Assembly (NCBI RefSeq): GCF_003634215.1
Contig: NZ_RBWX01000007.1
Location: 484,001-548,000 of the forward strand
Length of the DNA stretch: 64,000 nucleotides
Source of the DNA: Sphingosinicella microcystinivorans
GTDB taxonomy: Bacteria > Pseudomonadota > Alphaproteobacteria > Sphingomonadales > Sphingomonadaceae
Reading direction: 5' to 3'
Under the pieces are notes generated by a model. It was not told the DNA's origin, did not search any database, and saw only the letters and a program-made list of their open reading frames with translations. This document shows, piece by piece, positions 39,713-63,721 of this stretch. Every line of letters begins with the position of its first letter. The stretch's first letter is position 1. The translations under genes were made by a program, and so were the position numbers.

Positions 39713-39794
39713 CGCGCACCTTCTATCATGCAATCTGTAGCCTGGATGCGATAGCCGCGCGGCGCGCGCCCGGCTTCATATCAAGCGCCGTCAC

Positions 39795-45293: not shown

Positions 45294-45371
45294 TGCCGTT
45301 TCACGTCGAACTCCATCCACTAAGCGCCGGTTCTGAATGGGCCTTGGCGAATAGCGATGGGAGTGATGCTG

Positions 45372-46013
45372 ATGAGAATTTTACTGGCGGCAATATTTGC
45401 GATGTCAGGAGCCCAAGCCCAAGCGCATGAAATCTGGATTGAAAAGGATTCCAGCGGTCCGGCGAGAATATACCTTGGAGAGCCCGACTACCCGACTCCT
45501 GAAGGTGGCGACAAGGAGTTCCATCGTCTGCGCGCGCCGCAGGTGTTCCAGACGAACGCCAAGGAGGTGATTCCTGTTGTTCGCCGATCGGATCACCTGG
45601 AAGCGAACATATCAGGCAAGGGCGACATTCGGCTGCGCGATGATGATATTTTCGCGCCGGAGATGGGTGAGGACGGGAAATACGCCGCGCGCATCTATTA
45701 TGCAAAAGCGGGCAGGGCCGAAATTGCCCCTAAGCTTGACTTCGAAGTCGTTCCTTTGGAGCCGGGCGGATCCACCTTTCAGATTCTGTTCCAGGGTAAA
45801 CCGACGCCCAAAGAGGGGGTGAGAATCATCCGCCCCGACGGATGGCTGAAAAATATCAAGTCTGATCAAAATGCCCAGTTCACGGTGCCGACCGATATCA
45901 GCGGTCGTTATCTGCTCTTCGTTGACCACAACGAGGCTGTAAACCGTCAATTGGATGACAAGGCGGTATCCAAGATAACGCATGTCACAACCCTCACATT
46001 TGTTCAGCCCTGA
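45372..46013 (+). CDS. DUF4198 periplasmic protein
   Basis: A 213-residue exported protein of the DUF4198 (NikM-like) family. The signal peptide is RILLAAIFAMSGAQAQA, and the mature protein starts with HEIWIEK; an N-terminal His-Glu after cleavage is typical and could bind a metal. Several beta strands follow (FEVVPLEPG, GRYLLFVDH). The family occurs with nickel, cobalt or iron uptake genes. The third of three close ATGs (45372) was chosen because GGGAG stands 8 nt before it. It is the first gene of a same-strand group with a porin, a PepSY protein and a TonB receptor. Confidence 0.82.
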   Translation: MRILLAAIFAMSGAQAQAHEIWIEKDSSGPARIYLGEPDYPTPEGGDKEFHRLRAPQVFQTNAKEVIPVVRRSDHLEANISGKGDIRLRDDDIFAPEMGEDGKYAARIYYAKAGRAEIAPKLDFEVVPLEPGGSTFQILFQGKPTPKEGVRIIRPDGWLKNIKSDQNAQFTVPTDISGRYLLFVDHNEAVNRQLDDKAVSKITHVTTLTFVQP

Positions 46014-46049
46014 TGGGCGTGATGGGCATTGTCTGAGAATGCGCGGCTC

Positions 46050-48539: not shown

Positions 48540-50624
48540 ATGAAGTCGTGCAAAAAAATAATATTTCACTGCATTGTTCTTTCATCGGTTTCAATGTCAT
48601 CGATGGCCAGTGCTCAGACGTCACCGGCAACTTCGGACGTCAATGAAGAAATCGTTGTAAGCGCTGACCGGCGGAACAGCTTTAGTCAGGATTATCTGCA
48701 GGCGGGTGCGTTTCGTGATGCCAAGATCATCGACACGCCGCTTACCGTGTCGGTGCTCAGCCGCGAACTTCTCGATGCGCAGCAGGCTGCCAGCATCCTT
48801 GACGCGGCGCGCAATACGGCGGGTGTCACGCAGTCGCAGCTCAACGCAACAATCTACAGCAACCTGTCGATCCGCGGCATCGCCGTCGACAACCTGACCA
48901 ATTATCGATTCAATGGGATTCTGCCGATGATTAACTTCATCGACATGCCCATCGAGAACAAGGACCGCGTTGAAGTTCTGAAAGGTGCGGCGGGCCTCTA
49001 TTACGGCTTCGCATCACCGTCGGGCATCGTGAACCTGGTGTCCTCGCGTCCGACGCTTGACCCGGTCAACCGCATTGACGTGTCCGGGAACGTGCATGGC
49101 GCGTTTGGTGCACACGCGGATATCGGCCGGAAATGGGGCGATGTCGGCCTCCGTATCAACGCTGCAGCCAGTTCGATAGAGAACGGTGTCGAAGACACCA
49201 AGGGCCGCCGCTTCTTCACCTCGGCTGCATTCGACTGGGAGCCGGTTGACGGGCTGCTCCTTCAGGTTGATGCGGAATATATCGACAAGTCTGTTACCGA
49301 AGCGACGGAACTCGTCCTTCCGGCTGCGGTCAACGGCGTGATCACCGTGCCGCCGCTGCAAAAGGCCTCCAAGAACCTGGGTTCGACCTGGCTTCTGTCC
49401 GAAGGATACGAGTATAACCTTCTGGCGCGTGCAAGATACAATATGTCGGCCGACTGGAGTGTGTCGATCGGCGTCGGCGAGTCCTATCTCAAGCGCGACC
49501 GTCGATACTCATCCTTCTCGGGCTATGATATTGTCACCGGAAACGGCACGCTTGGCGTCGCCCTGACTCATGGCAACGATTATCGTGCGCGGATTGTTCG
49601 TGGCGATGTTGCCGGCGTCATCGAAACTGGCCCGATAAAGCACAATATTCTGATCGGCGTTTCCCACTACGAGCGCGACAGCAATATTCCTGCAGCGACA
49701 CGTTACACGTTCTCGCAGAATCTCTATGATCCCATCGAAATTCCGGAGCAGCCGACACCGGCGCGGACGATCACCAGCATCTCGCGTGTCAACGAGGATG
49801 CGTTTTTCATCTTCAACAGGGCGAGCCTGGATGATTGGCTCAACCTGATCATCGGCTACCGCAAGACCGAATACAAGGATCGCAGCCTCGTTTCCACCTA
49901 CAAGGCCAGCCCCGATTCCTGGTCCTACGGTGCGCTCGTGAAGCCAATGTCCTGGCTTAGCGTGTATGGGAACTATATCGAAGGTTTGGAGTCGGGCGGG
50001 ATCGTGCCGCAGATCGCGACAAATGCCGGCGAGGTGTTGCCGGCGGCGCTCAGCAAGCAGCATGAATTCGGCATCAAACTTGAACCAAAAAGGGGATTCC
50101 TGATCACGGGTGCCTATTTCGATATCGACAGGGCGTCCTCTTATCTCAATGCCGCCAATCTCTACGTTCAGGACGGTGAAGCCAACTACAAGGGCTTCGA
50201 GTTCAGTGCGTCGGGAGAACTCTTGCCCGATCTTTCGCTTTCCGTGAGCGGGGTCCGTCTTGATGCGGAACAGAAGACGGGAAGCGCATCGGTTATCGGC
50301 AACAGGATCGAGAATACAGCAAAGTTCAGCGGCTCGATCTTCGCGGAGTATCGCATCGAGGCGCTTGATGGTCTCCGTGCTTCCGCCGGCGTGTTTCGCG
50401 TTGGAAGGCGGGCATCGAATGCCGTCAATTCAGCCTTTGTGCCGGGTTATACAACGTTCGATCTGGGCCTTCGTTATGAGAAGGAAATGTACGGACGTCC
50501 GGTTTCCTTCCGGGTCTACGGCGAGAACGTAACCGGCAAGAAGTATTGGGCGGCTACAGGTTCGAGCCTGATCCAGCAGGGCTTGCCTCGCAGTGTGAAG
50601 TTCTCGGTATCGACGTCCTTCTGA
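48540..50624 (+). CDS. TonB-dependent siderophore-type receptor
   Basis: A 694-residue outer-membrane receptor. The signal peptide ends at MASAQ (about residue 24). The plug domain (about 45-160) shows SVLSRELLDAQQAASILDA, then SIRGIAVDN and RVEVLKGAAGLYYGFASPSGIVNLV, the siderophore-receptor variant. The rest is a 22-strand barrel ending in the aromatic SVSTSF. It takes up a ferric chelate or similar using TonB energy. AAGGGGG precedes the ATG. It is the last gene of the metal-uptake group and is followed by a terminator. The ligand is unknown. Confidence 0.92.
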   Translation: MKSCKKIIFHCIVLSSVSMSSMASAQTSPATSDVNEEIVVSADRRNSFSQDYLQAGAFRDAKIIDTPLTVSVLSRELLDAQQAASILDAARNTAGVTQSQLNATIYSNLSIRGIAVDNLTNYRFNGILPMINFIDMPIENKDRVEVLKGAAGLYYGFASPSGIVNLVSSRPTLDPVNRIDVSGNVHGAFGAHADIGRKWGDVGLRINAAASSIENGVEDTKGRRFFTSAAFDWEPVDGLLLQVDAEYIDKSVTEATELVLPAAVNGVITVPPLQKASKNLGSTWLLSEGYEYNLLARARYNMSADWSVSIGVGESYLKRDRRYSSFSGYDIVTGNGTLGVALTHGNDYRARIVRGDVAGVIETGPIKHNILIGVSHYERDSNIPAATRYTFSQNLYDPIEIPEQPTPARTITSISRVNEDAFFIFNRASLDDWLNLIIGYRKTEYKDRSLVSTYKASPDSWSYGALVKPMSWLSVYGNYIEGLESGGIVPQIATNAGEVLPAALSKQHEFGIKLEPKRGFLITGAYFDIDRASSYLNAANLYVQDGEANYKGFEFSASGELLPDLSLSVSGVRLDAEQKTGSASVIGNRIENTAKFSGSIFAEYRIEALDGLRASAGVFRVGRRASNAVNSAFVPGYTTFDLGLRYEKEMYGRPVSFRVYGENVTGKKYWAATGSSLIQQGLPRSVKFSVSTSF

Positions 50625-50638: not shown

Positions 50639-50690
50639 CGGGGCGGTCTCTTGTCGATCATGTTCGAGAAGGAGCCGCCCCGATCTTTCC
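50639..50690 (+). terminator. Terminator after the TonB receptor gene
   Basis: An 8-bp all-GC stem (50639-50646 with 50675-50682), partly extended inside, followed by ATCTTT. It stands 15 nt after the stop and separates the metal-uptake group from the catabolic cluster. Confidence 0.6.
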
Positions 50691-50723: not shown

Positions 50724-51854
50724 ATGAAGTACGATGCGATCGTGATAGGTGGTGGCTTCGCTGGAACATCGGCGGCCTACTTTCTGTCACAGGCTGCAAA
50801 CGTGATGTTGATCGAGGGAGAGACCTCGCTCGGTACGCAGAGCTCAGGGCGCTCGGCCGAACAATTCACGGTTGGCATCGCTGCGGATACGATGCGCGGC
50901 CTTGGCGCTGCCAGTCGGTCGTTCTTCGATAACCCGCCGGACGGCTTCTGCGAAGGCCCGTTGCTTTCGCCGCGAGGCTGTCTCACCGTCGGGTCAATGG
51001 AGCAGAAAGGGCGTCTCGACGCCCTCGTTGAGCGTCTTGTATCGGTGAAGGCGGAAGCACAGATTCTATCGGGTTCGGAAGCGCTTGGCATGTTTCCATC
51101 GCTGCTCCCGGCAGGTGTCGAGTGTGGCGTCTATGAGCCCGGCGCTGCTGATATAGACAGCAACAAGTTGCTGCAGGGCTATGTACGCGGCGCCCGCCTG
51201 CACGGCGCCACGATTGAAAGCGGTCAACCCGCAATCAGCATCCGGAAAACCGCAAAGGGGTGGGAAGTCACCACACCGAGCGGGTGTCACGAAGCGGCGG
51301 TGCTCGTGAACGCGGCGGGCGCCTGGGTCGACGAGGTTGCCGCCATGGCAGGGATCGAACCCGTGGGCATTATGCCTATGCGCCGCACGGCCTTCACATT
51401 TGCTGCGCCGACGGGCGTCCGCGTCGACGACTGGCCGCACATCTTCAAGGTTGGCAGGCAATGGTATCTGAAGCCGGAAGCCGGACGATTCATGGGGAGC
51501 CTTGCTGAGGAAGTGCTTACACCGCCAGGCGATGTCTACCCGGATGACATTGATGTGGCGCAGGCGATCGAGAACATTCAGGCCGACACGGATCTGGAGG
51601 TCGGGCGTCCGCTGAGCACGTGGGCCGGTCTCAGGAATTTCGTTCGCGATCGCAATCCGCTGTGCGGCGTCCGCGCGTCTGATCCGTCGTTTGTATGGGT
51701 GGCGGCTCAGGGCGGTTGCGGTGTGCTGACATCCCCGGCGCTCGGTGCTGCTGCCGCGGCCGCTGCGCTTGGTCAGCCGCTTCCCGAGATCGTCTCCGCT
51801 TTCGGCATTACGTCTGCAGATCTCTCTCCGGATCGTCTTTCCCTGAATCACTGA
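50724..51854 (+). CDS. FAD-dependent amine/amino-acid oxidoreductase (DAO family)
   Basis: A 376-residue D-amino-acid-oxidase-like flavoprotein. The dinucleotide fold IVIGGGFAGTSAA gives Gly9, Gly10, Gly11 and Gly14, and SSGRSAEQFTVG follows at the flavin. Such enzymes turn an amine or amino acid into an imine, with electrons going to oxygen or the respiratory chain. The gene is first in the catabolic cluster, after a terminator. The RidA gene lies 52 nt downstream and would remove the imine product. Cytoplasmic, no signal peptide. Substrate unknown; glycine-oxidase, sarcosine-oxidase and polyamine-type activities are possible. Confidence 0.88.
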   Translation: MKYDAIVIGGGFAGTSAAYFLSQAANVMLIEGETSLGTQSSGRSAEQFTVGIAADTMRGLGAASRSFFDNPPDGFCEGPLLSPRGCLTVGSMEQKGRLDALVERLVSVKAEAQILSGSEALGMFPSLLPAGVECGVYEPGAADIDSNKLLQGYVRGARLHGATIESGQPAISIRKTAKGWEVTTPSGCHEAAVLVNAAGAWVDEVAAMAGIEPVGIMPMRRTAFTFAAPTGVRVDDWPHIFKVGRQWYLKPEAGRFMGSLAEEVLTPPGDVYPDDIDVAQAIENIQADTDLEVGRPLSTWAGLRNFVRDRNPLCGVRASDPSFVWVAAQGGCGVLTSPALGAAAAAAALGQPLPEIVSAFGITSADLSPDRLSLNH

Positions 51855-51906
51855 TGCTTGTGTTTCAAAGCATCGCGGAATTGCTTCACCAACTACAGGA
51901 TAGACA

Positions 51907-52320
51907 ATGACCATCTACAAGCCGACTGCCGTACCCCGCACGCGTTACACTTCAGGCAGCGAGTACGAGCGTCAGTACAACTACAGCCGGGCTGTTCTGG
52001 TGGGGAACCACTTGATGATTTCCGGCACGACGGGCTACGACTACGCGACCAGCACTCTCGTGGGTACCGCTGAGGCGCAAACGAAGCAGCTCATCAAAAA
52101 TGTCGAGAATGTTCTGGCACAGGCCGGGGGCACGCTTGCCGACATCGTGCGTGTGCGCATGTATCTGGCCTATGCTGAAGATTACGACGTCATCATGGAG
52201 GTGTATGCTCGCGCATTCGAAGGGATCTGCCCGGCGTGCACGACTGTAGAGGCGAAGCTGTTCGACGCTGATATCCGCATCGAAATGGATATGGACGCGA
52301 TCATCGATGTCCGCTCTTAG
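51907..52320 (+). CDS. RidA-family enamine/imine deaminase
   Basis: A 137-residue RidA (YjgF) protein that hydrolyses reactive imines to carbonyl compounds and ammonia. The family core shows LMISGTTGYDYAT, EAQTKQLIKNVENVLAQAGGTLADIVRVRMYL and a C-terminal KLFDADIRIEMD. The conserved carboxylate-binding Arg is seen in DIVRVRMYL. RidA homologues placed beside amino-acid or amine oxidases act on the products of those enzymes. Here it lies between two flavin oxidases and overlaps the second by 14 nt. Confidence 0.93.
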   Translation: MTIYKPTAVPRTRYTSGSEYERQYNYSRAVLVGNHLMISGTTGYDYATSTLVGTAEAQTKQLIKNVENVLAQAGGTLADIVRVRMYLAYAEDYDVIMEVYARAFEGICPACTTVEAKLFDADIRIEMDMDAIIDVRS

Positions 52321-53662
52321 CCTCAGTTCTCATACACCGGATGACGTTCTCGCCCGTATCGAAGGGCGATATCCGCCAATTCCAAGCCAGGCCGATGCCA
52401 TCATCATCGGCGGCGGCATCATGGGTCTCGCGACAGCCTTCTACATGGCCGGAGCCGGTCTCAAGGTTCTGGTGATCGAGAAGGATCGTGTTGCCGGCCA
52501 GCAATCGGGTCGCAACTGGGGTTTTGTGCGTACCCAGTATCGGGATCCGGCCGAGATGCCATTGGCTGTTGAAGCACTGCGTCTCTGGCGGGGCCTGGAA
52601 GCCGAACTTGGGACGCCTGTTGGCTGGCGGGAAACCGGCTGCCTGTTCGCCGCTTCCAATGAACCGGAATACGAAGCCTTCGCGGCTTGGTTGAAGTCGG
52701 TCGACGGGATCGCGCGTTCGTCCCGCCTGCTGAACCGCAGCGAGACCGCAACGCTGTTGCCTGCACTGAAGCAGGGAACGGCGGGCGCTCTTTATACACC
52801 CGACGACGGGCAGGCGGAGCCGGGAGAGGCAACGTCCGCCTTCGCAAAAGCCGCGCGGGGGCTGGGCGTTCAAATTCTGGAAGACTGCGGGGCGATCGAA
52901 ATCGACGTTGCTGGCGGACGCGTGAAGGGTGTTTACACGGAACATGGCAGAATAGCCGCCGACATTGTTGTCTGCGCGGCAGGAGCGGTGTCACACCAGC
53001 TGCTGCGCTCGCTGTCCTTGGTGCTGCCGCAGAAAACCGTTCGGAACACGGTATCGTTGACGACCGTGGCGCCCCGGCTGTCCCAGCCATGCTTTTGCGG
53101 ATTTGGTCTCGGGCTCAGGCAACGCGCTGACGGTTCCTGCATCATCGCTGCAGAGTCCATGTCCGATGTGGATGTCACACTGGGATCGTTCACGAACATC
53201 AAATATTTCCTGGGAAGTTTCCTGGCGAATCGCCGGTCGTTCCAGCTGAATGTCGGCCGAGCGCTGCTTGACGATCTGTATGCGCTAATGGTGAGAGGGC
53301 GCGACGAACGCAGGGTCGAACCTCGCCGTCCGTTCCTGCCGCCCAACGAGAAGCGCGCGGCCACGATGAAAGCGCTGTTGGGAAAGCTCTTCGAGGGCGC
53401 AGACAGTCTTGGGATCGTGAAATCGTGGGCCGGCGCGATCGATGTTCTTCCCGATGCGTTGCCCGTTATCGACGGTACGACGGGCGTGTCGGGGCTGATC
53501 GTCGCGACGGGCTTTTCCGGGCACGGCTTTGGCCTTGCGCCGGCGGTCGGGAAAGCCGTGTCGGGTATCGCGCAGGGGCAGGCGCCCTCCCTCGGGCTCG
53601 AGGCTTTTCGTCTCGACCGCTTTGCGAAGGGCACGTTCGGCCAGCCCCACGCGCCACTCTGA
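52307..53662 (+). CDS. Second FAD-dependent amine/amino-acid oxidoreductase
   Basis: A 451-residue DAO-family flavoprotein. The dinucleotide motif is IIIGGGIMGLATA (Gly35-Gly37, Gly40), then GQQSGRNWGFVRTQYRD at the flavin site and a C-terminal GLIVATGFSGHGFGLAPAVGK. It is longer than the first oxidase and not a close copy. It overlaps the RidA gene by 14 nt and is followed 10 nt later by an aldehyde dehydrogenase, so its product may be an aldehyde from oxidative deamination, as in gamma-glutamylputrescine oxidation. That link is inference. Confidence 0.88.
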   Translation: MSALSLSSHTPDDVLARIEGRYPPIPSQADAIIIGGGIMGLATAFYMAGAGLKVLVIEKDRVAGQQSGRNWGFVRTQYRDPAEMPLAVEALRLWRGLEAELGTPVGWRETGCLFAASNEPEYEAFAAWLKSVDGIARSSRLLNRSETATLLPALKQGTAGALYTPDDGQAEPGEATSAFAKAARGLGVQILEDCGAIEIDVAGGRVKGVYTEHGRIAADIVVCAAGAVSHQLLRSLSLVLPQKTVRNTVSLTTVAPRLSQPCFCGFGLGLRQRADGSCIIAAESMSDVDVTLGSFTNIKYFLGSFLANRRSFQLNVGRALLDDLYALMVRGRDERRVEPRRPFLPPNEKRAATMKALLGKLFEGADSLGIVKSWAGAIDVLPDALPVIDGTTGVSGLIVATGFSGHGFGLAPAVGKAVSGIAQGQAPSLGLEAFRLDRFAKGTFGQPHAPL

Positions 53663-53672
53663 GGAGATTGTC

Positions 53673-55181
53673 ATGACAGGTTCCAGTCACGCGCACTACG
53701 AGGCCATAGCGAGCCGGCTGGTCATGCCTTCGCGCGCACTGATCGGCGGCAGATGGCAATCCGCGACCAAGGGAGAGCTCTTCGAGACGGTCAACCCCGC
53801 GACCGGAGAGGTGCTGGCCACTGTTGCTCACTGCAGCGCGGCGGATGTCGACAGCGCTGTGATCGCCGCCCGGCGCAGCGTGCGCGAAGGCGTGTGGTCA
53901 CGCAGCGCACCTGAGTTTCGGAAGGAAATCCTCCTGCGGCTGGCCGATACCATCGCGCAGCATGCAGAGGAACTCGCCGTTCTTGAAAGCCTCGACAGCG
54001 GAAAGCCGATCCGGGACTGCCTGAAGGAGATCGGCGAAGAGGTGCCGAACTGCTTTCGCTGGTATGCAGAACTCATCGACAAGAGTTTCGGCAAGGTCGC
54101 GCCGACGGGTGAGCATGTTCTGGCCATGATCGTGAAAGAGCCGGTCGGTGTCGTCGGATTGGTGCTGCCCTGGAACTTCCCGTTGCTGATGGCTGCCTGG
54201 AAGATGGCGCCCGCGCTTGCCGCCGGGTGTTCTGTCATCGTCAAGCCCGCGGAACAAACGTCACTGTCCGCGTTGAGGCTCGGTGAACTCGCGGTTGAAG
54301 CGGGCATACCGGACGGTGTTCTCAGTATCGTGCCGGGGCTTGGAGAAACCACTGGCGCCGCAATCGGGCGTCATCCGGATATCGACGCCGTTTCCTTCAC
54401 CGGATCGACGGAAATCGGGCGTGTCTTCCTTCGGTATGCGTCGGATTCCAATCTCAAGACTATCGGACTTGAGATGGGCGGAAAAAGCCCGTTCATCGTT
54501 CTGGACGATGCGGAAATTTCGGACGATCTCGTCGAAAGCGCAGTGATGTCGGCCTTCTGGAACGGAGGCCAGAACTGTTCTGCGAACATGCGTCAGATTG
54601 TATCCGCGAAGGTTCATGATGATTTCCTGCACGCCGTTGTTGAGCGCGCACGCGGAATCGTGATCGGCCATTCGCTTGATCCTGAAACCGAGATGGGACC
54701 GCTTGTGTCGGCGGAACACAAGGAAAACGTGTGCCGTTTCCTCGACATCGGCCGCAAGGAGGGGGCTCGGACCGTTCTGGATCTCGCCGATCAGGGTAGG
54801 CGGGGCAGCTATCTCGGGCCAACTGTATTTACGGACCTCTCTCCCGACATGCGGATCGCGGGGGAGGAAATTTTCGGGCCCGTTCTGGGTGTCCTGAAGG
54901 TCAACGCCCTCGACGAGGCGATCCGGGTGGCGAATGATTCCGACTACGGCCTGCATGCCACCGTCTACACGCGCGACATTGATGCCGCACTTCATGTTGC
55001 CAAACGGCTCGAATGTGGCACGGTAGCCGTCAATGGGTTTACGGAAGGCGATATGAAGACGCCGTTTGGCGGATACAAGCAATCTGGCTCCCTGGCCCGG
55101 GACAAGGGAACAGAAGCGCTCGACCAATATCTCCGCAGTAAAACCATATGGATAACGTCAGGTGCCGATCGTCTCGGCTGA
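53673..55181 (+). CDS. NAD(P)-dependent aldehyde dehydrogenase
   Basis: A 502-residue aldehyde dehydrogenase. The catalytic Cys is residue 302 (NGGQNCSANMR), general base Glu267 (LEMGGKSP), with PWNFP for the cofactor and a C-terminal PFGGYKQSG. The length and spacing match the canonical ALDH numbering. It resembles gamma-glutamyl-gamma-aminobutyraldehyde (PuuC) and semialdehyde enzymes. It would oxidise the aldehyde from the neighbouring amine oxidase to a carboxylic acid. GAGGAG precedes the ATG. Confidence 0.93.
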   Translation: MTGSSHAHYEAIASRLVMPSRALIGGRWQSATKGELFETVNPATGEVLATVAHCSAADVDSAVIAARRSVREGVWSRSAPEFRKEILLRLADTIAQHAEELAVLESLDSGKPIRDCLKEIGEEVPNCFRWYAELIDKSFGKVAPTGEHVLAMIVKEPVGVVGLVLPWNFPLLMAAWKMAPALAAGCSVIVKPAEQTSLSALRLGELAVEAGIPDGVLSIVPGLGETTGAAIGRHPDIDAVSFTGSTEIGRVFLRYASDSNLKTIGLEMGGKSPFIVLDDAEISDDLVESAVMSAFWNGGQNCSANMRQIVSAKVHDDFLHAVVERARGIVIGHSLDPETEMGPLVSAEHKENVCRFLDIGRKEGARTVLDLADQGRRGSYLGPTVFTDLSPDMRIAGEEIFGPVLGVLKVNALDEAIRVANDSDYGLHATVYTRDIDAALHVAKRLECGTVAVNGFTEGDMKTPFGGYKQSGSLARDKGTEALDQYLRSKTIWITSGADRLG

Positions 55182-55202
55182 CAATAACGAGGGAGTGCCG
55201 TC

Positions 55203-56111
55203 ATGACCCGCCGTCTTCCGTCAGTCAACGCACTGAAATGCTTCGAGGTCGCGGCGGCACAGATGAGCATTCGCAAGGCGGCGTCGGTTCTGCGCGTCAG
55301 TGAGAGTGCGGTAAGCCGGCAGGTGCGGATTCTGGAGCAGCAGTTGAGCGTCACGCTGTTTCACCGCGGGCACAATGGTCTTGAGTTGACTCCGGAGGGC
55401 AAAATACTTGCATCCAGTACCAAGGATGCCTTCGATCAGATCGCCAGGACGATCGACAGTTTTCACCGTGATCAGGATGTGGTCGAGCTTCGCGTTCTGC
55501 CGACGTTTGCGCTGCGCTGGCTATACCCGCGCCTTCGGGAGTTTCAGGAGCAGTATCCTTTCGTGAAGGTGATGATACACACGCGCTGGCATGACATGAT
55601 CTCCAGCGACAACGACGCGGAGCTTGGCATTCGCTATGGGCTCGGAAACTGGCGGAACGAGGACGTAACCGAACTCTACGCAGAGCAGCTCGTCCCCATC
55701 TGCGCGCCGGGTTACATCTCCGGCGGCGAACTCCGCAGTGCGGAAGATTTGCGGGGCAAGACGTTGCTTCATTCCCAGCCAGACCATCAGGATTGGAAAA
55801 CCTGGGCCGCGGGCTGGAACGGCGGCGTGATCGACACCGACAACGGGCTGGATTTCGATGTGCTCGACATGGCGCTTCGCGCTGCGGAGGCGGGGTTCGG
55901 TATCACGGCGAGCGATCTGCTGCTCGCCCACGACGCCATTCGGGATGAACAGCTGATTATGGCTTCACGTCGTGTCGTAGCGAGTGGCACGTCCTACTAT
56001 CTGGTCCGTCCCGCAAATCTCAACGCGCGCCGCCAGGTCCGACTGCTCTCCGAATGGATCTGCGACGAGATGAGCTCGGCACGGCAGATGCTTGCCGCGT
56101 ACAGAAACTGA
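55203..56111 (+). CDS. LysR-type regulator of the catabolic cluster (GcvA-like)
   Basis: A 302-residue LysR regulator of the GcvA/AmpR branch, recognised from LPSVNALKCFEVAAAQMSIRKAASVLRVSESAVSRQV (helix-turn-helix near 20-45) and LFHRGHNGLELTPEG. The effector domain (about 90-290) shows YPFVKVMIHTR and RYGLGNW. It lies within the cluster, 21 nt after the aldehyde dehydrogenase and 5 nt before the ABC transporter genes, so it is cotranscribed with what it likely controls. No clear binding site was identified. Confidence 0.92.
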   Translation: MTRRLPSVNALKCFEVAAAQMSIRKAASVLRVSESAVSRQVRILEQQLSVTLFHRGHNGLELTPEGKILASSTKDAFDQIARTIDSFHRDQDVVELRVLPTFALRWLYPRLREFQEQYPFVKVMIHTRWHDMISSDNDAELGIRYGLGNWRNEDVTELYAEQLVPICAPGYISGGELRSAEDLRGKTLLHSQPDHQDWKTWAAGWNGGVIDTDNGLDFDVLDMALRAAEAGFGITASDLLLAHDAIRDEQLIMASRRVVASGTSYYLVRPANLNARRQVRLLSEWICDEMSSARQMLAAYRN

Positions 56112-56116
56112 AGGGG

Positions 56117-57712
56117 ATGACGTCCTTGATTTCACGTCGGCTGCCGGCCGCCATGGCGCTTTGTGGCCTTCTTCTGGGCGCATGTACTGCATCGCAGCCA
56201 TCCGGCACGAAATCGCAAGACATGATGCAGATTCCGCTCACGTCGGATATTCGCGGTACCAATCCTGGCGTTAATCGCGATGCCAATACCGATACCATCA
56301 TGATGCATGTTCTTGAAGGGCTGGTTGGCTACCGCGAAGACGGCACGCCCGATCTGCTGCTCGCCGATGCCCTCACGGTTTCTCCCGATGGGAAGCGCTA
56401 CACGTTCCACCTGCGCGAAGGGCTGGTGTTCCACAACGGTCAGCCCGTCACGTCACGCGAGGTCGTTTGGTCGTGGCGTCGGTATCTCGATCCCAAGACC
56501 AACTGGACCTGCCTCGCCGATTTCGATGGGACACGCGGCGCGAAGATCGAGTCTGTGGACGCGATCGACCCCCTGACCGTTTCCTTCACGCTTGATCGCC
56601 CCCAACCGCTGTTCCTGACCTTGATGGCGGCAATCAGCTGTGGTGGCGGGGCCGTCCTCCATCCGGATTCGGTGGCCGCCGACGGAAGCTGGCGCGAACC
56701 GATCAGCACGGGGCCATACCGGATCTCCAGCTGGGTGCGGGGGCGCTACATCGACATGACAGCCTTTGCCGGATATCGGCCTCTGGAAGGTGAACCCGAC
56801 GGAAATGTGAGAGGCAAAACCCCGTACGAGCGTCATTTGCGCTGGCTGATCATCCGTGATGCATCGTCTCGCCTGGCTGCGCTCGTGAAAGGGCAGGTCG
56901 ACGTGATGCCGGAGGTGCCCGCCGCGGAGATGCTGCAGCTTCGGCGGATGAAGGATATCCGCATCGTCGCAGCACCGATGTTGGGCGCCTACGGCATTCT
57001 CGTTCAGGACCGGAATCCGCTGCTTGCCGATCTCCGGCTTCGGGAAGCGATCGCCTATTCGATTGACCGGCGCACCTTGGCGCGACTGGTTACCGAAGAC
57101 ACCGCGGATGCCAATCCGTCGATTGTCGCCTCGGCAAGTCCCTTTGGCGTGTCCGCCGACACGGCGGAGGCACTGTTCGATCCCGCCCGCGCGAGAGCGT
57201 TGCTGAAGGCCGCGGGCTATCGAGGCCAGCCGATCGTTCTCACAACAAACCGGCGCTACCCCGCCATGTTCAATCAGGCGCTCCTCGTCCAGGCGATGGC
57301 GCGGCAGGTTGGGCTCAATATCAAGATCGAGGTTCTCGAGTGGGCGACACAGATGGATCGATGGCGCAGTGGTGATTTCCAGCTGCTGTCTTTTGGTTTT
57401 TCCGCCAAGGCAGATGCCGCGCAGAGTTATGAGTCCATCCTCGGCGACCGCGACGCTTCCCCGGGAAAAACATGGGGTGACCCCGAAGCCCGGAGGCTTC
57501 TGGCTGAAAGCATGATGACGGCGGATATGGCGGAGCGCCGCAAGATATTCAGCAAGCTGCACAGCGAAATGCTGCACGATGTTCCCTTTATTGGGTTGTT
57601 CAGCCCAGCAGATACCAACGCCATACGAGATGGCGTGACGGGGTTCCGTTCGTGGCAATTTGGGCGTGCCCGCTTCTGGGGCGTGCGTCGCAATGGGACA
57701 CCTGCATCATGA
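56117..57712 (+). CDS. Peptide-type ABC transporter binding lipoprotein
   Basis: A 531-residue solute-binding protein of family 5 (DppA/OppA kind) anchored by lipid. The lipobox is LLLGAC near residue 23. GLVGYREDGTPDLLLADALTVSPDGKRYTFHLR is the hallmark of the family. It binds oligopeptides, amides or similar for import. ATG 56117 directly adjoins AAGGGG, which is too close; a TTG at 56126 stands 9 nt after that site and may be the true start, giving a 528-residue protein. First of four transporter genes. Confidence 0.92.
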   Translation: MTSLISRRLPAAMALCGLLLGACTASQPSGTKSQDMMQIPLTSDIRGTNPGVNRDANTDTIMMHVLEGLVGYREDGTPDLLLADALTVSPDGKRYTFHLREGLVFHNGQPVTSREVVWSWRRYLDPKTNWTCLADFDGTRGAKIESVDAIDPLTVSFTLDRPQPLFLTLMAAISCGGGAVLHPDSVAADGSWREPISTGPYRISSWVRGRYIDMTAFAGYRPLEGEPDGNVRGKTPYERHLRWLIIRDASSRLAALVKGQVDVMPEVPAAEMLQLRRMKDIRIVAAPMLGAYGILVQDRNPLLADLRLREAIAYSIDRRTLARLVTEDTADANPSIVASASPFGVSADTAEALFDPARARALLKAAGYRGQPIVLTTNRRYPAMFNQALLVQAMARQVGLNIKIEVLEWATQMDRWRSGDFQLLSFGFSAKADAAQSYESILGDRDASPGKTWGDPEARRLLAESMMTADMAERRKIFSKLHSEMLHDVPFIGLFSPADTNAIRDGVTGFRSWQFGRARFWGVRRNGTPAS

Positions 57713-58653
57713 TACGCTACGCCATCACCCGGCTGGCGCTGGCCTTGCCGACGATCGTCATTGCGCTGTTTCTGATCTTTGCGCTCATCCGGCTCATCCC
57801 CGGTGATCCCGCGCAGCTCATTCTGGGTGAGACGGATGACCCCGCGGCGCTCGCCCGCATTCGTGCGGAGCTGGCGCTCGATCAGCCGCTCGCCGTGCAG
57901 TTCTATCACTGGGTGACAGCGCTGGGGCAGGGGGATTTCGGGAAATCCATTTCGATGGAAAGCCCGGTTCTCGACCTTCTCGTGCCGGCCATGGGCGTAA
58001 CCGCGTCCCTTGTGATCCCGGCGGTCGTGCTTGCCGCGATCATGGCTGTGCCGCTCGGCATGTTCGCCGCGTGGCGTCAGAACACCCGCACGGACACAGT
58101 CGTGGTCGCGCTCGCAACCGTCTCCCTGTCCATTCCAAGCTTCTGGCTGGGGTTGATGATGCTGCTTCTCTTCGGTGTTCAGCTCGATATTTTCCCCGTG
58201 GTTGGATACATCTCGCTGACTGAAGATTTTACGCAGGGGCTGCATTATCTCGTGCTTCCCGTGCTCACGCTTGCGTTGATCGAGGCCGGTGTGCTGGTGC
58301 GTTTGGCGCGCGCCAGCACGATTGAAGTCCTGCAGCTCGAATATGTTGCTCATGCGCGGGCCAAGGGGCTTTCGGAATCGGCTGTCGCCTGCCGTCATGT
58401 GCTGCCAAATGTGATCGGGCCGACTTGGATCATGATCGGGCTTGTACTCGGCGGCCTTCTCGGCGGCGCCGTTGTCATCGAGACGGTGTTTTCGTTGCCG
58501 GGCCTCGGACGCCTCATGGTCGAAGCCGTGTTCGCGCGTGATTACCCCGTCGTTCAAGGCTGTATGGTGATTGTGATGCTCTGCTATGTCGGCGTCAATT
58601 TGATGATCGAGCTTACCGCTCCTGTCTTATGTCCGGCGCTTCGCTATGACTAA
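57709..58653 (+). CDS. Peptide-type ABC transporter permease, DppB-like
   Basis: A 314-residue inner-membrane permease with six helices of the DppB/OppB type. Family marks: IRYAITRLALALPTIVIALFLIF, RLIPGDPA near residue 31 and the EAA cytoplasmic loop EYVAHARAKGLSESAVACRHVLPN. It pairs with the next gene to form the channel. The frame is open upstream inside the binding-protein gene, but the ATG at 57709 overlaps that gene's stop by 4 nt and begins the first helix. Confidence 0.94.
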   Translation: MIRYAITRLALALPTIVIALFLIFALIRLIPGDPAQLILGETDDPAALARIRAELALDQPLAVQFYHWVTALGQGDFGKSISMESPVLDLLVPAMGVTASLVIPAVVLAAIMAVPLGMFAAWRQNTRTDTVVVALATVSLSIPSFWLGLMMLLLFGVQLDIFPVVGYISLTEDFTQGLHYLVLPVLTLALIEAGVLVRLARASTIEVLQLEYVAHARAKGLSESAVACRHVLPNVIGPTWIMIGLVLGGLLGGAVVIETVFSLPGLGRLMVEAVFARDYPVVQGCMVIVMLCYVGVNLMIELTAPVLCPALRYD

Positions 58654-59488
58654 CTCTACGCGAAGCTGGGCGACGATGCTGAAAACCCGCCCGAGCGGCA
58701 TCGTGGGGATGGTGGTGCTCGCTCTTGTCGTTTCCGCTGCGATTGCGGGGGCCATAGCCACGCCTTTCGATCCAACGCTGGTGGATTTTTCCTCCCGCCT
58801 GCTGCCGCCATCCCTGCGGCATTGGCTTGGAACGGATGAGTGGGGACGAGACGTCTTCAGCCGCCTGCTGTCCGGCGCAGCGATCACCGTGAGTGTTGCG
58901 GGCATGACGACGCTCCTCGTCACAGTTTTCGGCGCGCTGCTGGGCGCCTTCTCCGGCTTTGTCGGGGGCTGGTTCGATCGCGTCGTCGTCGCGCTGATGG
59001 ATGCGTTTCTTGCCTTTCCAGCGCTCGTTCTGGCGATCGCGATGACGACGGTTCTCGCGGGTTCGCCTGTCGCGCCCGTGATCGCGCTTGCCGTTGCCTA
59101 CATGCCGTACATGGTTCGCGTGGTGCGGGCGAATGTCATGACGATGCGTCAACGGGATTTTATCGCGGCATCGAAAGTGATGCGTAACAGCGCGGCATTC
59201 ACGCTTGTTCGGCACATCATGCCGAACACCGTCGCCCCCGTGCTCGTTATGGCGACTTCGCTTTTCGGGTGGGCGTTGCTGGCGGAATCGGCCTTGTCTT
59301 TTCTCGGCCTGGGTCTCGCCCCGCCCGCGGCGAGCTGGGGCGGAATGTTGGCGGACAGCCGCAACTACTTCGCCGATGCGCCCTGGCTTGCAATCGCTCC
59401 CGGGGTCGCGATTTCAGGCGCCCTGCTCGGCATCAATCTTTTTGGTGATTTCTGCAGGGATTACTTCGATCGGAAGATGAAAGACTGA
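58646..59488 (+). CDS. Peptide-type ABC transporter permease, DppC-like
   Basis: A 280-residue DppC/OppC permease with about six helices. The segment LGTDEWGRDVFSRLLSGAAITV is diagnostic, and the EAA loop is DFIAASKVMRNSAAFTLVRHIMPN. It forms the membrane channel with the DppB-like subunit, whose gene it overlaps by 8 nt; its own stop overlaps the ATPase start by 1 nt (TGATG). Confidence 0.94.
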   Translation: MTNSTRSWATMLKTRPSGIVGMVVLALVVSAAIAGAIATPFDPTLVDFSSRLLPPSLRHWLGTDEWGRDVFSRLLSGAAITVSVAGMTTLLVTVFGALLGAFSGFVGGWFDRVVVALMDAFLAFPALVLAIAMTTVLAGSPVAPVIALAVAYMPYMVRVVRANVMTMRQRDFIAASKVMRNSAAFTLVRHIMPNTVAPVLVMATSLFGWALLAESALSFLGLGLAPPAASWGGMLADSRNYFADAPWLAIAPGVAISGALLGINLFGDFCRDYFDRKMKD

Positions 59489-61245
59489 TGAGCCCTTCTT
59501 CATCTACGCCCGTGCTTGCCGTTGAAGGCCTCACGATCGCCGCGAAAGGCGGCTCTGCCATTGTCCAGAATTTGGGATTTTCGCTGAAATCCGGGGAAAT
59601 CGGCGCACTTGTGGGCGAGTCCGGGAGCGGCAAAACCACGGTGGGGCGTGCGATCCTCCGCCTTCTGTCACCGGCTCTGTCCGTTACGGCGGGCTCCATC
59701 CGTTTCGAAGGCCATGATCTCGTCCAGGCTGACGCCGGCATCATGCGTAACCTGCGCGGGCGGCGTATCGGCGCGGTCTTTCAGGAGCCGATGGTTTCGC
59801 TTAATCCGTCGCTGACCGTCGGCCGACAAATGATGGAAGCGCTTTTGCTTCACGAAGCGATCTCCCGGCGAGAGGCGCGTGCGCGATGCCTCGATATGCT
59901 GGAAAGGGTGAGGATCAGCGATCCGCTTCGCTGTTTCAATGACTATCCCGGCAAGTTCTCGGGCGGCATGCGGCAGCGCTTCATGCTTGCATCGGTATTG
60001 TCGACGCGCCCGTCACTGCTGATCGCCGATGAGCCGACGACCGCGCTGGACGCGATAATCCGCAAGGAAATCATGGACCAGATGGTCGAGCTTGTGCGGG
60101 AGCTCGGGACGACAGTGCTTCTCATCAGCCATGATCTCGCGATGCTCTCACAGTATTCCGATACAACCACCGTCCTCAAGGGCGGGCAGATCGTCGAACA
60201 TGGCGATACGCGCGATATTCTGCTCCGCCCGCGAACCGCCTACATGCGCGAATTCGTCGCCGCACTGCCGAAACGCCCTGCGAGCGGCTTCACCGAAGCT
60301 GCGGAGGAGGAGCTTGTCAGCGTCGCGAACCTCGACGTGACATTTCGCACCAAACCCACTGCGCCGTTCGCGAAAGGCGGTACGGTGCGGGCCGTTCAAG
60401 ATGTCAGTTTTGATGTTCGGCGCGGCGAGGTGGTTGCCGTTGTCGGCGAGTCTGGTTCCGGCAAGACAACCCTGGGACGAACGCTTGCAGGCCTCAACTC
60501 CGCCACGTCCGGCACATTGGACGGGCCGTGCTTTATCGACAGTCAGACCAAGGCGGTGCCTCGCATACAGATGGTCTTTCAGGATTCGCACTCTTCGCTC
60601 GATCCGCAAATGACGCTCGAGAGCATCGTTGCCGAACCGCTACGGCAGGATCGCAGTCTGACGAACGCGGAACGTCTGGCCCGTGCGCGTGGAGCACTTG
60701 AGGAGGTCGGGCTTCCTGCGTCATTCTGCAAGCGCTACGTACATGAACTCTCGGGAGGACAGCGGCAACGGGTCGGCATTGCGCGCGCGGTGGTCAGCCA
60801 TCCGGCCCTCGTTGTCGCTGACGAGCCCGTGTCCGCTCTTGATGTTTCCGTTCAGCGCCAGGTCTTGGATCTCCTCGCGCAAATGCGGTCGACCTATGGC
60901 CTGTCTTACCTCTTCATTTCGCACGATCTCAGTGTTGTAGAAGAAATCGCGGACCGCGTCCTCGTGATGTACCGGGGGCGTCTTGTGGAGGCAGGCCCGC
61001 GCGAGTCCATTTTCGAGCGGCCGCGTCATCCCTATACGCGCCGCCTTCTGGAGGCCACGCCCCGCATCTTTCACGCCTCGGATGACACATACGAACTCGC
61101 GATTCCATCGACCGAATTCAGCGACGCCCCCGACGGATTCATCTACTACGAACCGGGTAGTGCCAATGGCGGCGGGCTCGCGCAAATGGTTCAGATTGAT
61201 CAAGGGCATCAGGTTCTCTGCACCCCGGTCGCAGGGTTGAACTGA
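59488..61245 (+). CDS. Fused double ABC ATPase of the peptide importer
   Basis: A 585-residue protein with two ABC ATPase domains in one chain, replacing separate DppD and DppF. Domain 1: Walker A GESGSGKT at 43-50, signature FSGGMRQR and Walker B LLIADEPTTALD. Domain 2: Walker A GESGSGKT starting at 320, signature LSGGQRQR and Walker B LVVADEPVSALD. Both sites look catalytically complete. It powers import through the two preceding permeases. The last gene of the transporter group; the serine hydrolase follows after 103 nt. Confidence 0.94.
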   Translation: MSPSSSTPVLAVEGLTIAAKGGSAIVQNLGFSLKSGEIGALVGESGSGKTTVGRAILRLLSPALSVTAGSIRFEGHDLVQADAGIMRNLRGRRIGAVFQEPMVSLNPSLTVGRQMMEALLLHEAISRREARARCLDMLERVRISDPLRCFNDYPGKFSGGMRQRFMLASVLSTRPSLLIADEPTTALDAIIRKEIMDQMVELVRELGTTVLLISHDLAMLSQYSDTTTVLKGGQIVEHGDTRDILLRPRTAYMREFVAALPKRPASGFTEAAEEELVSVANLDVTFRTKPTAPFAKGGTVRAVQDVSFDVRRGEVVAVVGESGSGKTTLGRTLAGLNSATSGTLDGPCFIDSQTKAVPRIQMVFQDSHSSLDPQMTLESIVAEPLRQDRSLTNAERLARARGALEEVGLPASFCKRYVHELSGGQRQRVGIARAVVSHPALVVADEPVSALDVSVQRQVLDLLAQMRSTYGLSYLFISHDLSVVEEIADRVLVMYRGRLVEAGPRESIFERPRHPYTRRLLEATPRIFHASDDTYELAIPSTEFSDAPDGFIYYEPGSANGGGLAQMVQIDQGHQVLCTPVAGLN

Positions 61246-61348
61246 GATAGTCTGTTTTGGAGGCTGGCTTCTATTAATTGAAAACGACGATCCCTGAGAA
61301 CGACGCTAGGTCTGTTCTGATGGTCCGTGTGAAACGTGGAGTTCTGGT

Positions 61349-62488
61349 GTGAGCATTGATCCGGGTGACAAGGCTGAACTGTTGAAGCTGTTCGGCGGGA
61401 CGCTCATGCCGGGCGAAGTCGTGCATGCACTCCTTCGAAACAGCCGCGTGTTCCCTTATGGAATCGTGTCGCGCGGATCAGGCGCGCCGAAGATGCTGTC
61501 CTATTCGTCTGAGCCATTCCCCGCGATCGCGGTCGAACACGACGGGCGTACGTTCGACATGGCGGACTTTCTCTCGGTAAACCGCGTCGCCGGCCTGCTG
61601 ATCCTTAAGGATGGCCAGGTCGCTTTTGAACAGTACGAGCTTGGGCTTGATGCGGATACGCATTGGGCATCCTGCTCGGTGGCAAAGTCGATTGCATCAA
61701 CGCTGGTTGGCGCGGCGATGTATGACGGGGCGGTCCGCGACCTCGACGCGCCGCTCACCGACTATATCGAGATCGGCGGGCCGTACGCAGAGGTGTCGCT
61801 GCGCCAGCTGCTTCGCATGTGCACTGGCGTAGAGTGGAGCGAGGAGTATGTCGATCCCGGGTCCGAGCGGCGCAAACTCCTCGCTCGTCAGCTTGAATTC
61901 CAGCCGAGAGCTGTCGTGGAGCACATGGCCGGCCTGTCCCGGTGCGCACCGCCCGGAGGGTCGTGGGCTTACAACACGGGCGAATCGTACCTTGTCGCGG
62001 CCGTTCTTGAGAAGGCAACGGGCCGTCCGCTGACAGAGTATCTTTCCGAAAAGATCTGGTCCCGTCTCGGCATGGAGCAGGATGCGACCTGGTGGCTTGA
62101 TAGTCCCGGCGGAATGGTTGTTTCCGGCAGCGGCATGGGCGCCACGCTTCGGGATTATGCGCGTTTTGGCCAGTTCGTCCTTGATGACGGCGTGATCGCG
62201 GGCGAGCGGGTCGTGCCCGAGGGATGGTTCAAGGAGGCGGGATCGCCGTTCCGTATCGGGGAGAGGTCGATCCCCTACGGCTACATGTGGTGGATGCCGG
62301 AGCTTCAAGATCCCGAACTCGAAGGAACGTTCCAGGCCGAAGGGATTTACGGTCAGTATATTCACGTCAACCCTCGCGAACGCCTCGTGATCGCCATGCT
62401 GAGCGCGCGTTCGAAGCCCAATTATCGTTTGCGTTTTGGATTGAACGACGATGCCTTTTTTGCGGCAGTGGCGCGCGCGCTCAAGTGA
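61349..62488 (+). CDS. Serine amidohydrolase, NylB/beta-lactamase-like
   Basis: A 379-residue cytoplasmic hydrolase of the class C beta-lactamase fold. The nucleophile motif is SVAK at 110-113 and YNTGE starts at Tyr208. Spacing and length are close to 6-aminohexanoate-dimer hydrolase NylB (nucleophile Ser112, Lys115, Tyr near 215), which cuts amide bonds in linear oligomers. WWLDSPGGMVVSGSGMGATLRDYARFG and EGIYGQ near the end are common to that group. No signal peptide. GTG start, preceded by GTGGAG. Role in the cluster: probable cleavage of an imported amide; esterase activity is the main alternative. Confidence 0.86.
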   Translation: MSIDPGDKAELLKLFGGTLMPGEVVHALLRNSRVFPYGIVSRGSGAPKMLSYSSEPFPAIAVEHDGRTFDMADFLSVNRVAGLLILKDGQVAFEQYELGLDADTHWASCSVAKSIASTLVGAAMYDGAVRDLDAPLTDYIEIGGPYAEVSLRQLLRMCTGVEWSEEYVDPGSERRKLLARQLEFQPRAVVEHMAGLSRCAPPGGSWAYNTGESYLVAAVLEKATGRPLTEYLSEKIWSRLGMEQDATWWLDSPGGMVVSGSGMGATLRDYARFGQFVLDDGVIAGERVVPEGWFKEAGSPFRIGERSIPYGYMWWMPELQDPELEGTFQAEGIYGQYIHVNPRERLVIAMLSARSKPNYRLRFGLNDDAFFAAVARALK

Positions 62489-62581
62489 CAGGGTGGGACG
62501 CGTGTTCAGACTTCCGGATTGCCTGCACTCGACAAGGTCGTGACGGATTCGCGCTCTTGAAGTTCCATTGAGGAGAAGCCG

Positions 62582-63721
62582 GTGCGTCCGCTTGAAAACC
62601 TCCTTGTGGTCAGTTTGGAACAGGCGATCGCGGCGCCCTTCTGTACGCGCCAGCTCGCGGATCTCGGCGCACGCATCATCAAGATCGAGCGGCCTGTGGG
62701 CGGCGATTTCGCGCGAGGATACGACGAACGGGCGCGGGGAATGTCATCCCACTTCGTCTGGGCCAATCGTTCCAAGGAAAGCGTGACACTGGACTTGAAG
62801 ATCGCAGACGATCTGGAGGCGCTGCGGGCGTTGCTGTGCCGGGCCGATGTTTTTGTTCAGAACTTGGCGCCCGGAGTCACAAGACGCCTTGGCCTTGACC
62901 ATGGCACGCTTGCGGAGAGAAATCCCGGACTTATTGTGTGTGACATATCGGGCTATGGCGAGGGTGGGCCCGATGAGCAGCGGAAAGCCTATGATCTTTT
63001 GATCCAGGCTGAATCCGGCTTTCTCTCGTTGACGGGCACCGCGAGCGAGCCGTGCAAAGCTGGAATATCCATAGCCGATATCGCGGCGGGAATGTACGCC
63101 TACAGCAATATTCTGAGCGCACTTCTGGAACGCCGGGAAACGGGGCAGGGGCGCCGGATCGACATATCGATGCTGGAAGCGATGGCGGAGTGGATGAGTT
63201 TCCCGCTCTACTACGCGCTGGATGGCGCTTCTCCACCGACACGTACGGGCGCCGATCATGCCACGATCTTCCCGTACGGTCGGTTCGCGGTCGTGGACGG
63301 CGAGATCGTGCTGGCCGTGCAGAACGATTGGGAATGGGCAGCGCTTTGTGCGAAAGTCCTGCGTCAGGCGGCGCTTGAAAAAGATCCCCGCTTCGAAACG
63401 AATTCACTTCGATCGGTGAACCGGGTCGCGTTGAAGGCCATTATCTCCGGCACTCTCGGCAGCCTCTCCCTTGAAGAGGTCGAAGGTCGGCTCGCGGAGG
63501 CGCGCATCGCTTACGCGCCTATCAGCACGATGGCGGACCTGTGGGATCATCGGCAACTGAAAGCCAGAGACCGATGGCGGGAGGTTGAAACGCCGGCCGG
63601 ACCGTTACCGTGCCTCCTCGCTCCCGGGCAGGTGGATATGCGTATTTCGCCCGTTCCCGAACGGGGTGTCCATACTTCAGCCGTTCTTCGAGAGTTCGGA
63701 TTGAGGCCTTCCGGCGCATAG
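62582..63721 (+). CDS. CaiB/BaiF-type CoA-transferase (family III)
   Basis: A 379-residue class III CoA-transferase that moves CoA between carboxylic acids. The N-terminal FCTRQLADLGARIIKIE, ANRSKESVTLDLK and SGYGEGGPDEQRKAYDLLIQA are family marks. The probable catalytic Asp is Asp166 (SIADIAAG), near the canonical Asp169. It could activate the acid made by the aldehyde dehydrogenase for beta-oxidation. GTG start with GAGGAG upstream. Last recognisable gene of the cluster and of the window. Confidence 0.92.
   Translation: MRPLENLLVVSLEQAIAAPFCTRQLADLGARIIKIERPVGGDFARGYDERARGMSSHFVWANRSKESVTLDLKIADDLEALRALLCRADVFVQNLAPGVTRRLGLDHGTLAERNPGLIVCDISGYGEGGPDEQRKAYDLLIQAESGFLSLTGTASEPCKAGISIADIAAGMYAYSNILSALLERRETGQGRRIDISMLEAMAEWMSFPLYYALDGASPPTRTGADHATIFPYGRFAVVDGEIVLAVQNDWEWAALCAKVLRQAALEKDPRFETNSLRSVNRVALKAIISGTLGSLSLEEVEGRLAEARIAYAPISTMADLWDHRQLKARDRWREVETPAGPLPCLLAPGQVDMRISPVPERGVHTSAVLREFGLRPSGA

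Follow-up and report, generated by a model that had tools for sequence, protein, structure and literature searches.

We examined a 64 kb window of the Sphingosinicella microcystinivorans genome (positions 484001-548000 of contig 1; the genome is 3.96 Mb), and describe here a block of about 20.6 kb within it (~43383-64008 in window coordinates) that lies beside a tRNA-Ser gene and that we regard as a candidate system for capturing and catabolizing an amide-type metal chelator. Most of the block is a run of eleven plus-strand open reading frames (ORFs) at 50724-63721, all intact in the ORF list and spaced at -14 to +103 bp; an earlier sequence-only reading of this DNA had recognized the same-strand set but counted ten genes. 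The first four encode OxA, a DauA-like FAD dehydrogenase or oxidase predicted to act on an alpha-amino-acid-type amine (50724-51854; PF01266), a Rid-family protein without the catalytic arginine (51907-52320; PF01042), OxB, a second flavoenzyme of the DAO superfamily (52307-53662; PF01266), and an aldehyde dehydrogenase (ALDH; 53673-55181; PF00171). They are followed by a LysR-type regulator embedded in the operon, as that reading had said (55203-56111; PF00126 and PF03466), and by an ATP-binding cassette (ABC) importer made up of a lipoprotein-like solute-binding protein of family 5 with a lipobox recognized by eye (SBP; 56117-57712; PF00496), the permeases PermB (57709-58653; PF00528) and PermC (58646-59488), and a fused double ATPase of the peptide/nickel/metallophore importer family (59488-61245; two PF00005 domains and PF08352). 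The run closes with Hyd, an SxxK serine hydrolase of the beta-lactamase/NylB family (61349-62488; PF00144), and CaiB, a class III CoA-transferase (62582-63721; PF02515). Pfam assignments are consistent with the gene names for the ten proteins scanned; PermC, which was outside the scan, is called from its ORF, and its homologues adjoin those of PermB in relatives.

The sequence-only reading let the unit begin at 50724, but the block starts well upstream of that position, and a receptor, a PepSY protein, a porin and a Fur-box-like site had been overlooked there, along with the boundaries at 43382 and 64009. These upstream plus-strand genes encode a small secreted-looking protein without a Pfam match (45357-46013), an OprB-family porin (46029-47255; PF04966, E 3e-33; start codon uncertain), a PepSY_TM protein that is a candidate ferric-chelate reductase (47281-48396; PF03929; GTG start inferred) and a TonB-dependent receptor of the siderophore class (48540-50624). 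The N-terminus alone of the small protein is similar to a DUF4198 protein of genome G076 (locus L084; E 0.006). A MATE-family efflux protein on the minus strand (43703-45064; PF01554) also falls within the block, in a stretch where homology to sister genomes is interrupted, and its link with the pathway is uncertain. The Fur-box-like site (45230-45248, plus strand) precedes the first plus-strand gene of the block; it agrees with the E. coli consensus at 15 of 19 positions and is the sole site scoring at least 15 in the 64 kb, where 0.03 would be expected. The 7-1-7 form gave one match, with two mismatches, at the position of this same site (expected 0.04), and scans with alphaproteobacterial Fur and Irr consensus sequences returned no outstanding site. 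In 13 other loci the best Fur-like sites have raw scores, taken without shuffle comparison, of 12-14 of 19; the best of them in the Pseudoroseomonas locus (L097; raw score 13) falls between OxB and the receptor. The gap between receptor and OxA holds a long inverted repeat (50639-50682, plus strand), and the resulting hairpin was equalled in stability by 5 of 200 shuffled sequences (z -2.35). The hairpin suggests two transcripts, one for uptake and one for catabolism that includes LysR.

The block was probably acquired horizontally, to judge from its edges and composition. On the left it follows tRNA-Ser(GGA) (43292-43382, plus strand; ARAGORN), and left-flank homology stops at 43382 in the sister genomes G587 and G589 and at 43573 in G590; right-flank homology resumes at 64009 in G590 and G262, of the same genus. 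The guanine-plus-cytosine content is 58-61% over 44-64 kb against 63-66% on the flanks, with a second dip (61-62%) 16 kb further on. No OxB match above 37% was found in five other genomes of the genus, two of which are 78% and 83% complete. Both flanks are joined in none of the genomes of the genus compared, and there is therefore no clean empty site. Interrupted homology in sister genomes, deviant composition and a tRNA gene are all features of genomic islands; direct repeats and an integrase are also counted among these, and we found no 12-bp repeat common to both edges in a search for att repeats, and the genes annotated in the block include no integrase. Directly to the right of the island (L002:2057-3694) lies a genus-native gene of the beta-lactamase family, 88-89% identical in G262 and G590, whose match in G590 holds two stop codons.

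The same genes recur, reordered, in other genomes. Genome contigs were scanned with an OxB alignment, which yielded 570 loci; among the best 80 of these, six carry OxB at 49% identity or above: Peristeroidobacter soli, Rhizobiales AFS063105, Bosea lathyri, Stella vacuolata, Pseudoroseomonas aerophila and Achromobacter sp. UMC46. G475, three members of one genus (G552, G455 and G327) and G076, which belongs to the window's order, came from samples of 289 and 296 genomes. With the window there are twelve clusters, spread over the alpha-, beta- and gammaproteobacteria according to the taxonomy of five named ones; ten of the others were chosen by OxB identity of at least 49% and G076 by Hyd, a selection that supports no claim of frequency, and counts of twelve refer, outside the window, to stretches of 16-37 kb in which unlinked genes can be missed. 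AFS063105 and Bosea lathyri are closely related, with receptors 90% alike.

OxB occurs in all twelve clusters (ten having been picked by it) and OxA in eleven; Hyd is likewise found in eleven, with relatives 51-59% identical and the remaining cluster at 29%, as is LysR, at 53-61% identity in 10 of 11 relatives. These four genes are the core. Around it stand Rid and ALDH (eight clusters each), SBP with two permeases (nine), the double ATPase (seven) and a siderophore-type receptor directly beside the core (six), in an order that varies from cluster to cluster; the Stella vacuolata locus is reduced to OxB and Hyd. The SBPs are of two unrelated types, 18-23% identical to one another. Type 1 is shared by the window, G076 and Peristeroidobacter (56-67% alike, the window protein being 56% and 58% identical to the other two), and type 2 by the other six (63-98%). 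Peristeroidobacter illustrates the rearrangement: Hyd is followed by a PepSY homologue, both permeases (64% and 61%), the ATPase (55%), CitE-like and CaiB genes on the opposite strand, and the receptor (59%). This genome has further features of its own. Directly after the main cluster comes another Hyd (46%), accompanied by a LysR and a TonB receptor of its own (L179:13955-18401) and preceded by a class III aminotransferase (L179:12524-13954); a further receptor-like ORF stands upstream of OxA (L093:5835-7766), and SBP and Hyd are separated by an insertion that encodes an ABC-2 type ATPase and two DUF3526 permeases (L093:16125-19731).

As a control we used the other 74 loci among the best 80 of the 570 in the OxB scan (OxB at most 43%; 47 of the 74 at least 19 kb long). 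Hyd and LysR of the cluster kind occur in none of them, OxA has one weak match (26%), PepSY is absent, and a receptor is present in two, by a profile that would miss FecA-type receptors such as one in L094. Since the genes recur in new orders elsewhere and Hyd is absent from every control locus, the set is no chance neighbourhood. The idea of one co-inherited catabolic unit, put forward in the sequence-only reading, is supported for the peptide-type importer, the serine hydrolase, the two flavoenzymes, ALDH, the embedded LysR gene and the CoA-transferase, the last being present in just three of the twelve clusters. Separately, Aminobacter loci L152 and L160 carry a CitE-like gene (31-32%) 4-5 kb from a distant OxB (40%), without the remaining cluster.

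The link with iron begins at the receptor. The window receptor exceeds the TIGR01783 siderophore-receptor cut-off (259.5 against 223.5 bits), as do all five scanned cluster receptors of relatives, and misses the equivalog cut-offs of both FoxA (112.9 of 1300 bits) and FhuA (121.7 of 803). It is 50% and 59% identical to the cluster receptors of G076 and Peristeroidobacter. The six cluster receptors fall into two clades, the first 50-59% and the second 57-90% identical within and 26-28% between, and both clades adjoin the core in differing arrangements. In AFS063105 (5.6 Mb) the query receptor has only one match at E 1e-20, which is the cluster receptor; Hyd is followed there by a FecR gene and then by another receptor, this one bearing an STN domain. 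In the Pseudoroseomonas locus the gene after the receptor encodes a periplasmic binding protein for which the ferrichrome/ferrioxamine B type is the best-scoring model, at 216 against a cut-off of 374. The PepSY protein has as its best solved relative the PepSY-domain protein 7abw (E 6e-5), which we take to be the ferric-chelate reductase FoxB, and its homologue in Peristeroidobacter directly follows Hyd. G552, G455 and G327 hold, 7-9 kb beyond LysR, a PepSY gene paired with a receptor of a third type (22-27% identical to the others), a pair whose link to the cluster is uncertain.

Three other observations concern such receptors. In G076, genes for HupE/UreJ, DUF6488 and DUF4198 proteins come after the receptor (L084:16774-18917), a hint of a metal other than, or besides, iron. 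The window genome has a second receptor of the same kind (C1:91300-93411, L183), which shares 48% identity with that of the island and has a hydrolase weakly similar to Hyd (25%) nearby. Lastly, all eight of the next-nearest Hyd homologues fetched (43-47%; L085-L092, from the same order) lie within 10 kb of a TonB-receptor gene, several of them directly next to it; this Hyd clade may be generally receptor-coupled, although receptor-rich genomes may explain part of the pattern by chance.

OxA has DauA as its best solved relative (3nyc, E 5e-90), its profile consensus being 48% identical to that enzyme. In the profile alignment R222, R305 and Y249 of DauA are kept, and the profile has Q for H48, I for Y53, S for E87 and Y for E246; the window OxA itself has Cys and Arg at the E87 and E246 positions. 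PMC11193025 assigns R222 and R305 to the alpha-carboxylate and E87 and E246 to the guanidinium group. With the first pair kept and the second replaced, OxA should take an alpha-amino-acid-type amine, and not D-arginine by the known contacts. Catabolism of D-arginine or D-lysine by way of a DauA-type enzyme was considered and rejected, since the cation-binding glutamates are replaced and the eleven genes include no decarboxylase. OxB is nearest, among solved structures, to an L-amino acid deaminase (5fjm, E 7e-40). AlphaFold models built from six-row alignments were poor (mean pLDDT 62.8 for OxA and 62.2 for Hyd) and were set aside.

The Rid protein had been read as a RidA imine deaminase, a role that its sequence does not support: the position of Arg105 (TdcF numbering) is Cys in all eight cluster Rid proteins. 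Of the four solved Rid relatives shown, three have R here and the nearest, 3i7t, has T. According to PMC4433059, Rid groups without the catalytic arginine are probably not imine hydrolases, and RidA-catalysed imine hydrolysis was therefore set aside for want of that residue. Where the arginine motif would stand, the subgroup has an invariant P-[AT]-C-T-T-V by which it can be recognized, and it adjoins OxB wherever it is present. ALDH has PuuC as its best NCBIfam model, at 527 bits against a cut-off of 850, and the best NCBIfam models of the ATPase are of the YejF, dipeptide, glutathione and nickel types.

Hyd does carry the SVAK motif that had been reported at 110-113 (Ser110-Val-Ala-Lys113), and S110, A112 and K113 are invariant in the six cluster hydrolases aligned. 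Its best solved relative is 8rlj (278.8 bits), which is PIB-1 of P. aeruginosa by a title cited in PMC13269358; entries named 6-aminohexanoate-dimer hydrolase score at most 120 bits (best 4gb7), so that the earlier label, NylB-like, is not supported. By eye, a signal peptide is absent from Hyd and present in SBP and in the receptor. CaiB is a secure family member (PF02515, 344.9 bits against a cut-off of 23.3), and its best specific models, succinate-glutarate and oxalate CoA-transferase, are all below cut-off. In G076 and Peristeroidobacter it is paired with a gene for a CitE-type lyase, whose matches to the citE and RipC models are likewise below cut-off; the CitE homologues of the window genome are distant (33% and 31%) and lie elsewhere.

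We suggest that the block is a self-contained system that captures and catabolizes an amide-type metal chelator, most likely a foreign siderophore, a reading towards which we lean by a modest margin over even chances. It starts from what the DNA records directly, namely the gene content and its conservation, the interrupted synteny, the receptor class and the active-site residues. The reactions, their order and the ligand are our reading of those features, and would run as follows. The iron-loaded chelator would cross the TonB receptor, and the PepSY protein would help to strip off the iron by reduction in the periplasm, leaving the peptide/metallophore-type ABC system to import the apo-chelator or a piece of it. 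In the cytoplasm, Hyd would split an amide (or ester) bond to give an amine half and an acid half. OxA would then oxidize the alpha-amine of the amine half and OxB a second amine, and ALDH would convert the resulting aldehyde to an acid for central metabolism. CaiB may make a CoA ester of the acid half, which in two relatives could be cleaved by the citramalyl/citryl-type lyase; a CoA ester and a lyase would fit an acid half that is a hydroxy-carboxylate, for example malate or citrate. Fur would probably govern uptake in response to iron, and LysR the catabolic genes. An amide of a hydroxy-carboxylate with an amino-acid or diamine backbone would draw on the largest number of these parts. Rhizobactin, staphyloferrin A, aerobactin and rhizoferrin are ligands of such types.

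The genomes offer some support for the ligand being foreign. A synthetase of the NRPS-independent siderophore (NIS) type (PF04183) occurs in one of the twelve cluster genomes, Achromobacter, and a full-length Lys/Orn N-hydroxylase in three, Achromobacter, G455 and G552, other matches being partial and weak; the lack of the former in eleven and of the latter in nine fits a foreign chelator. In the window genome neither was found, in a search that left nonribosomal peptide synthetase (NRPS) genes aside, and the organism is therefore probably no maker of those two kinds of siderophore. The order of steps also agrees with published physiology. Bacteria are reported to grow on desferrioxamine B and ferrichrome A through amide hydrolysis (PMC12364333) and siderophore catabolism is reported for the apo form only (PMC10866069), and the desferrioxamine B enzyme is most likely serine-peptidase-like (PMC5805875).

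A number of points weigh against this proposal. Half of the clusters (6 of 12) have no receptor directly beside the core, and G475, Stella vacuolata and Achromobacter have none in the stretch read; the last two carry a type-2 receptor elsewhere in the genome (48% and 54%, respectively), and G475 has no type-2 receptor in its genome at E 1e-60. Orthologues of the receptor (57-59%) occur in G210, G213 and G249 without catabolic genes alongside, receptors of the TIGR01783 class can carry other ligands, and the window cluster has no siderophore importer of the FhuD/FhuB type. The lone Fur-like site, whose score comes from the E. coli consensus, carries little weight, and the hairpin may put receptor and OxA on separate transcripts. 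On the acid side, malate or citrate would not evidently require a CoA route, and CaiB is as sparse as stated above. The CitE-like lyase and PepSY occur in two clusters each, and the control loci include two with a CitE-like gene and two with a partial match to CaiB.

It is also possible, though we think it unlikely, that an opine, a D-peptide or another non-chelator amide is degraded, with the receptor, porin and PepSY protein adjacent as the usual outer-membrane entry or as passengers in the transfer. The half of the clusters without a directly linked receptor would agree with this, and such substrates would sit well with flavoenzymes whose relatives use D- and L-amino acids and with an ABC system similar to peptide importers. 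This alternative has difficulty with two separate siderophore-receptor clades that accompany the core in rearranged orders, with the FhuD-type and PepSY partners and the Fur-like site, and with the near absence of receptors from the control loci (two of 74). The evidence points to a metal chelator first, and a ligand containing D-amino acids, one of the options of the sequence-only reading, comes behind it.

If the ligand is a chelator, a special case would be catabolism of a hydroxamate siderophore of the ferrioxamine type, with Hyd as a serine-type desferrioxamine amidase, the flavoenzymes and ALDH acting on the amine end and CaiB on the acid. The similarity of the receptors to the FoxA and FhuA models, below their cut-offs, the ferrioxamine-type binding-protein relative in the Pseudoroseomonas locus and the serine-peptidase-like character of the desferrioxamine B enzyme all speak for it, but the FoxA cut-off is missed by a wide interval (113 of 1300 bits), and OxA keeps its alpha-carboxylate arginines, whereas the amines of desferrioxamine bear no carboxylate; we consider this version improbable. 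Degradation of a nylon oligomer, a lactam or a gamma-glutamyl polyamine, where the sequence-only reading had looked, is very improbable and the nylon and polyamine routes were set aside: the hydrolase belongs to the NylB family with its SxxK and PuuC is the best model for ALDH, but Hyd is far nearer PIB-1, the PuuC cut-off is missed, neither a PuuA-like (glutamine-synthetase-like) nor a transaminase gene is among the eleven, and the receptor and PepSY partners would be left unexplained.

Returning to the foreign siderophore, we would extend the proposal, tentatively and at rather less than even chances, to the following. The block could be the first genetically delimited and portable siderophore-eating island, one that under iron limitation imports a foreign siderophore of the hydroxy-carboxylate amide kind, removes its iron in the periplasm and turns both halves into carbon and nitrogen by means of an amide hydrolase, two flavoenzymes and a CoA-transferase/lyase pair, its core being reused with different receptors and importers in three proteobacterial classes. 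Siderophores as food have been known physiologically for decades, with ferrichrome and desferrioxamine as the examples; what would be new is a catabolic island joined to a siderophore-type uptake front end. A search of open-licence papers returned physiological reports of siderophore degradation and, in the portions of them available, no gene cluster running from uptake to catabolism. If the proposal is true, a competitor's public good becomes food, and the block is a handle on how such a good is appropriated and afterwards broken down. Being bounded and holding receptor, importer, hydrolase and oxidases together, it would provide genes with which to test what becomes of siderophores in soil and rhizosphere, and the combination of DauA-like and LAAD-like (L-amino acid deaminase) flavoenzymes, an arginine-less Rid, a PIB-1-like hydrolase and a siderophore receptor is a signature with which to search.

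Outside the island, a minus-strand set of neighbouring ORFs lies at 34787-40853 of the window. By eye, it resembles a dipeptide epimerase set of the dgcN/dgcA type, together with genes for an N-acyl-D-amino-acid amidohydrolase, a dicarboxylate symporter and a LysR regulator.

Several known systems invite comparison. Itaconate degradation employs a CoA-transferase and a citramalyl-CoA lyase as a pair (Ict/RipC-Ccl), and the neighbouring CaiB and CitE/RipC-like genes of G076 and Peristeroidobacter resemble it; the differences are that all equivalog cut-offs are missed, that no hydratase was seen and that the window cluster has no CitE. NylB shares family and SxxK motif with Hyd but scores 101 bits, against 279 for PIB-1 (8RLJ), a serine hydrolase related to class C beta-lactamases and of the same family. 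DauA, the D-arginine dehydrogenase of P. aeruginosa, has its carboxylate arginines and Y249 in common with OxA and differs at E87, E246, H48 and Y53, replacements from which another side chain or a substituted amine would be expected. The closest parallels in physiology are growth on desferrioxamine B by Mesorhizobium loti LU and Azospirillum irakense and the degradation of ferrichromes by Pseudomonas, in which, as far as the available text of the reports goes, the chelator serves as carbon source (PMC5805875, PMC12364333, PMC10866069, PMC11800396). That text names no catabolic gene cluster, and the match with the present enzymes and ligand is by analogy; within those bounds, the pathway we propose would resemble these degradations in hydrolysing an amide of the apo form and, as for desferrioxamine B, in doing so with a serine-type enzyme.

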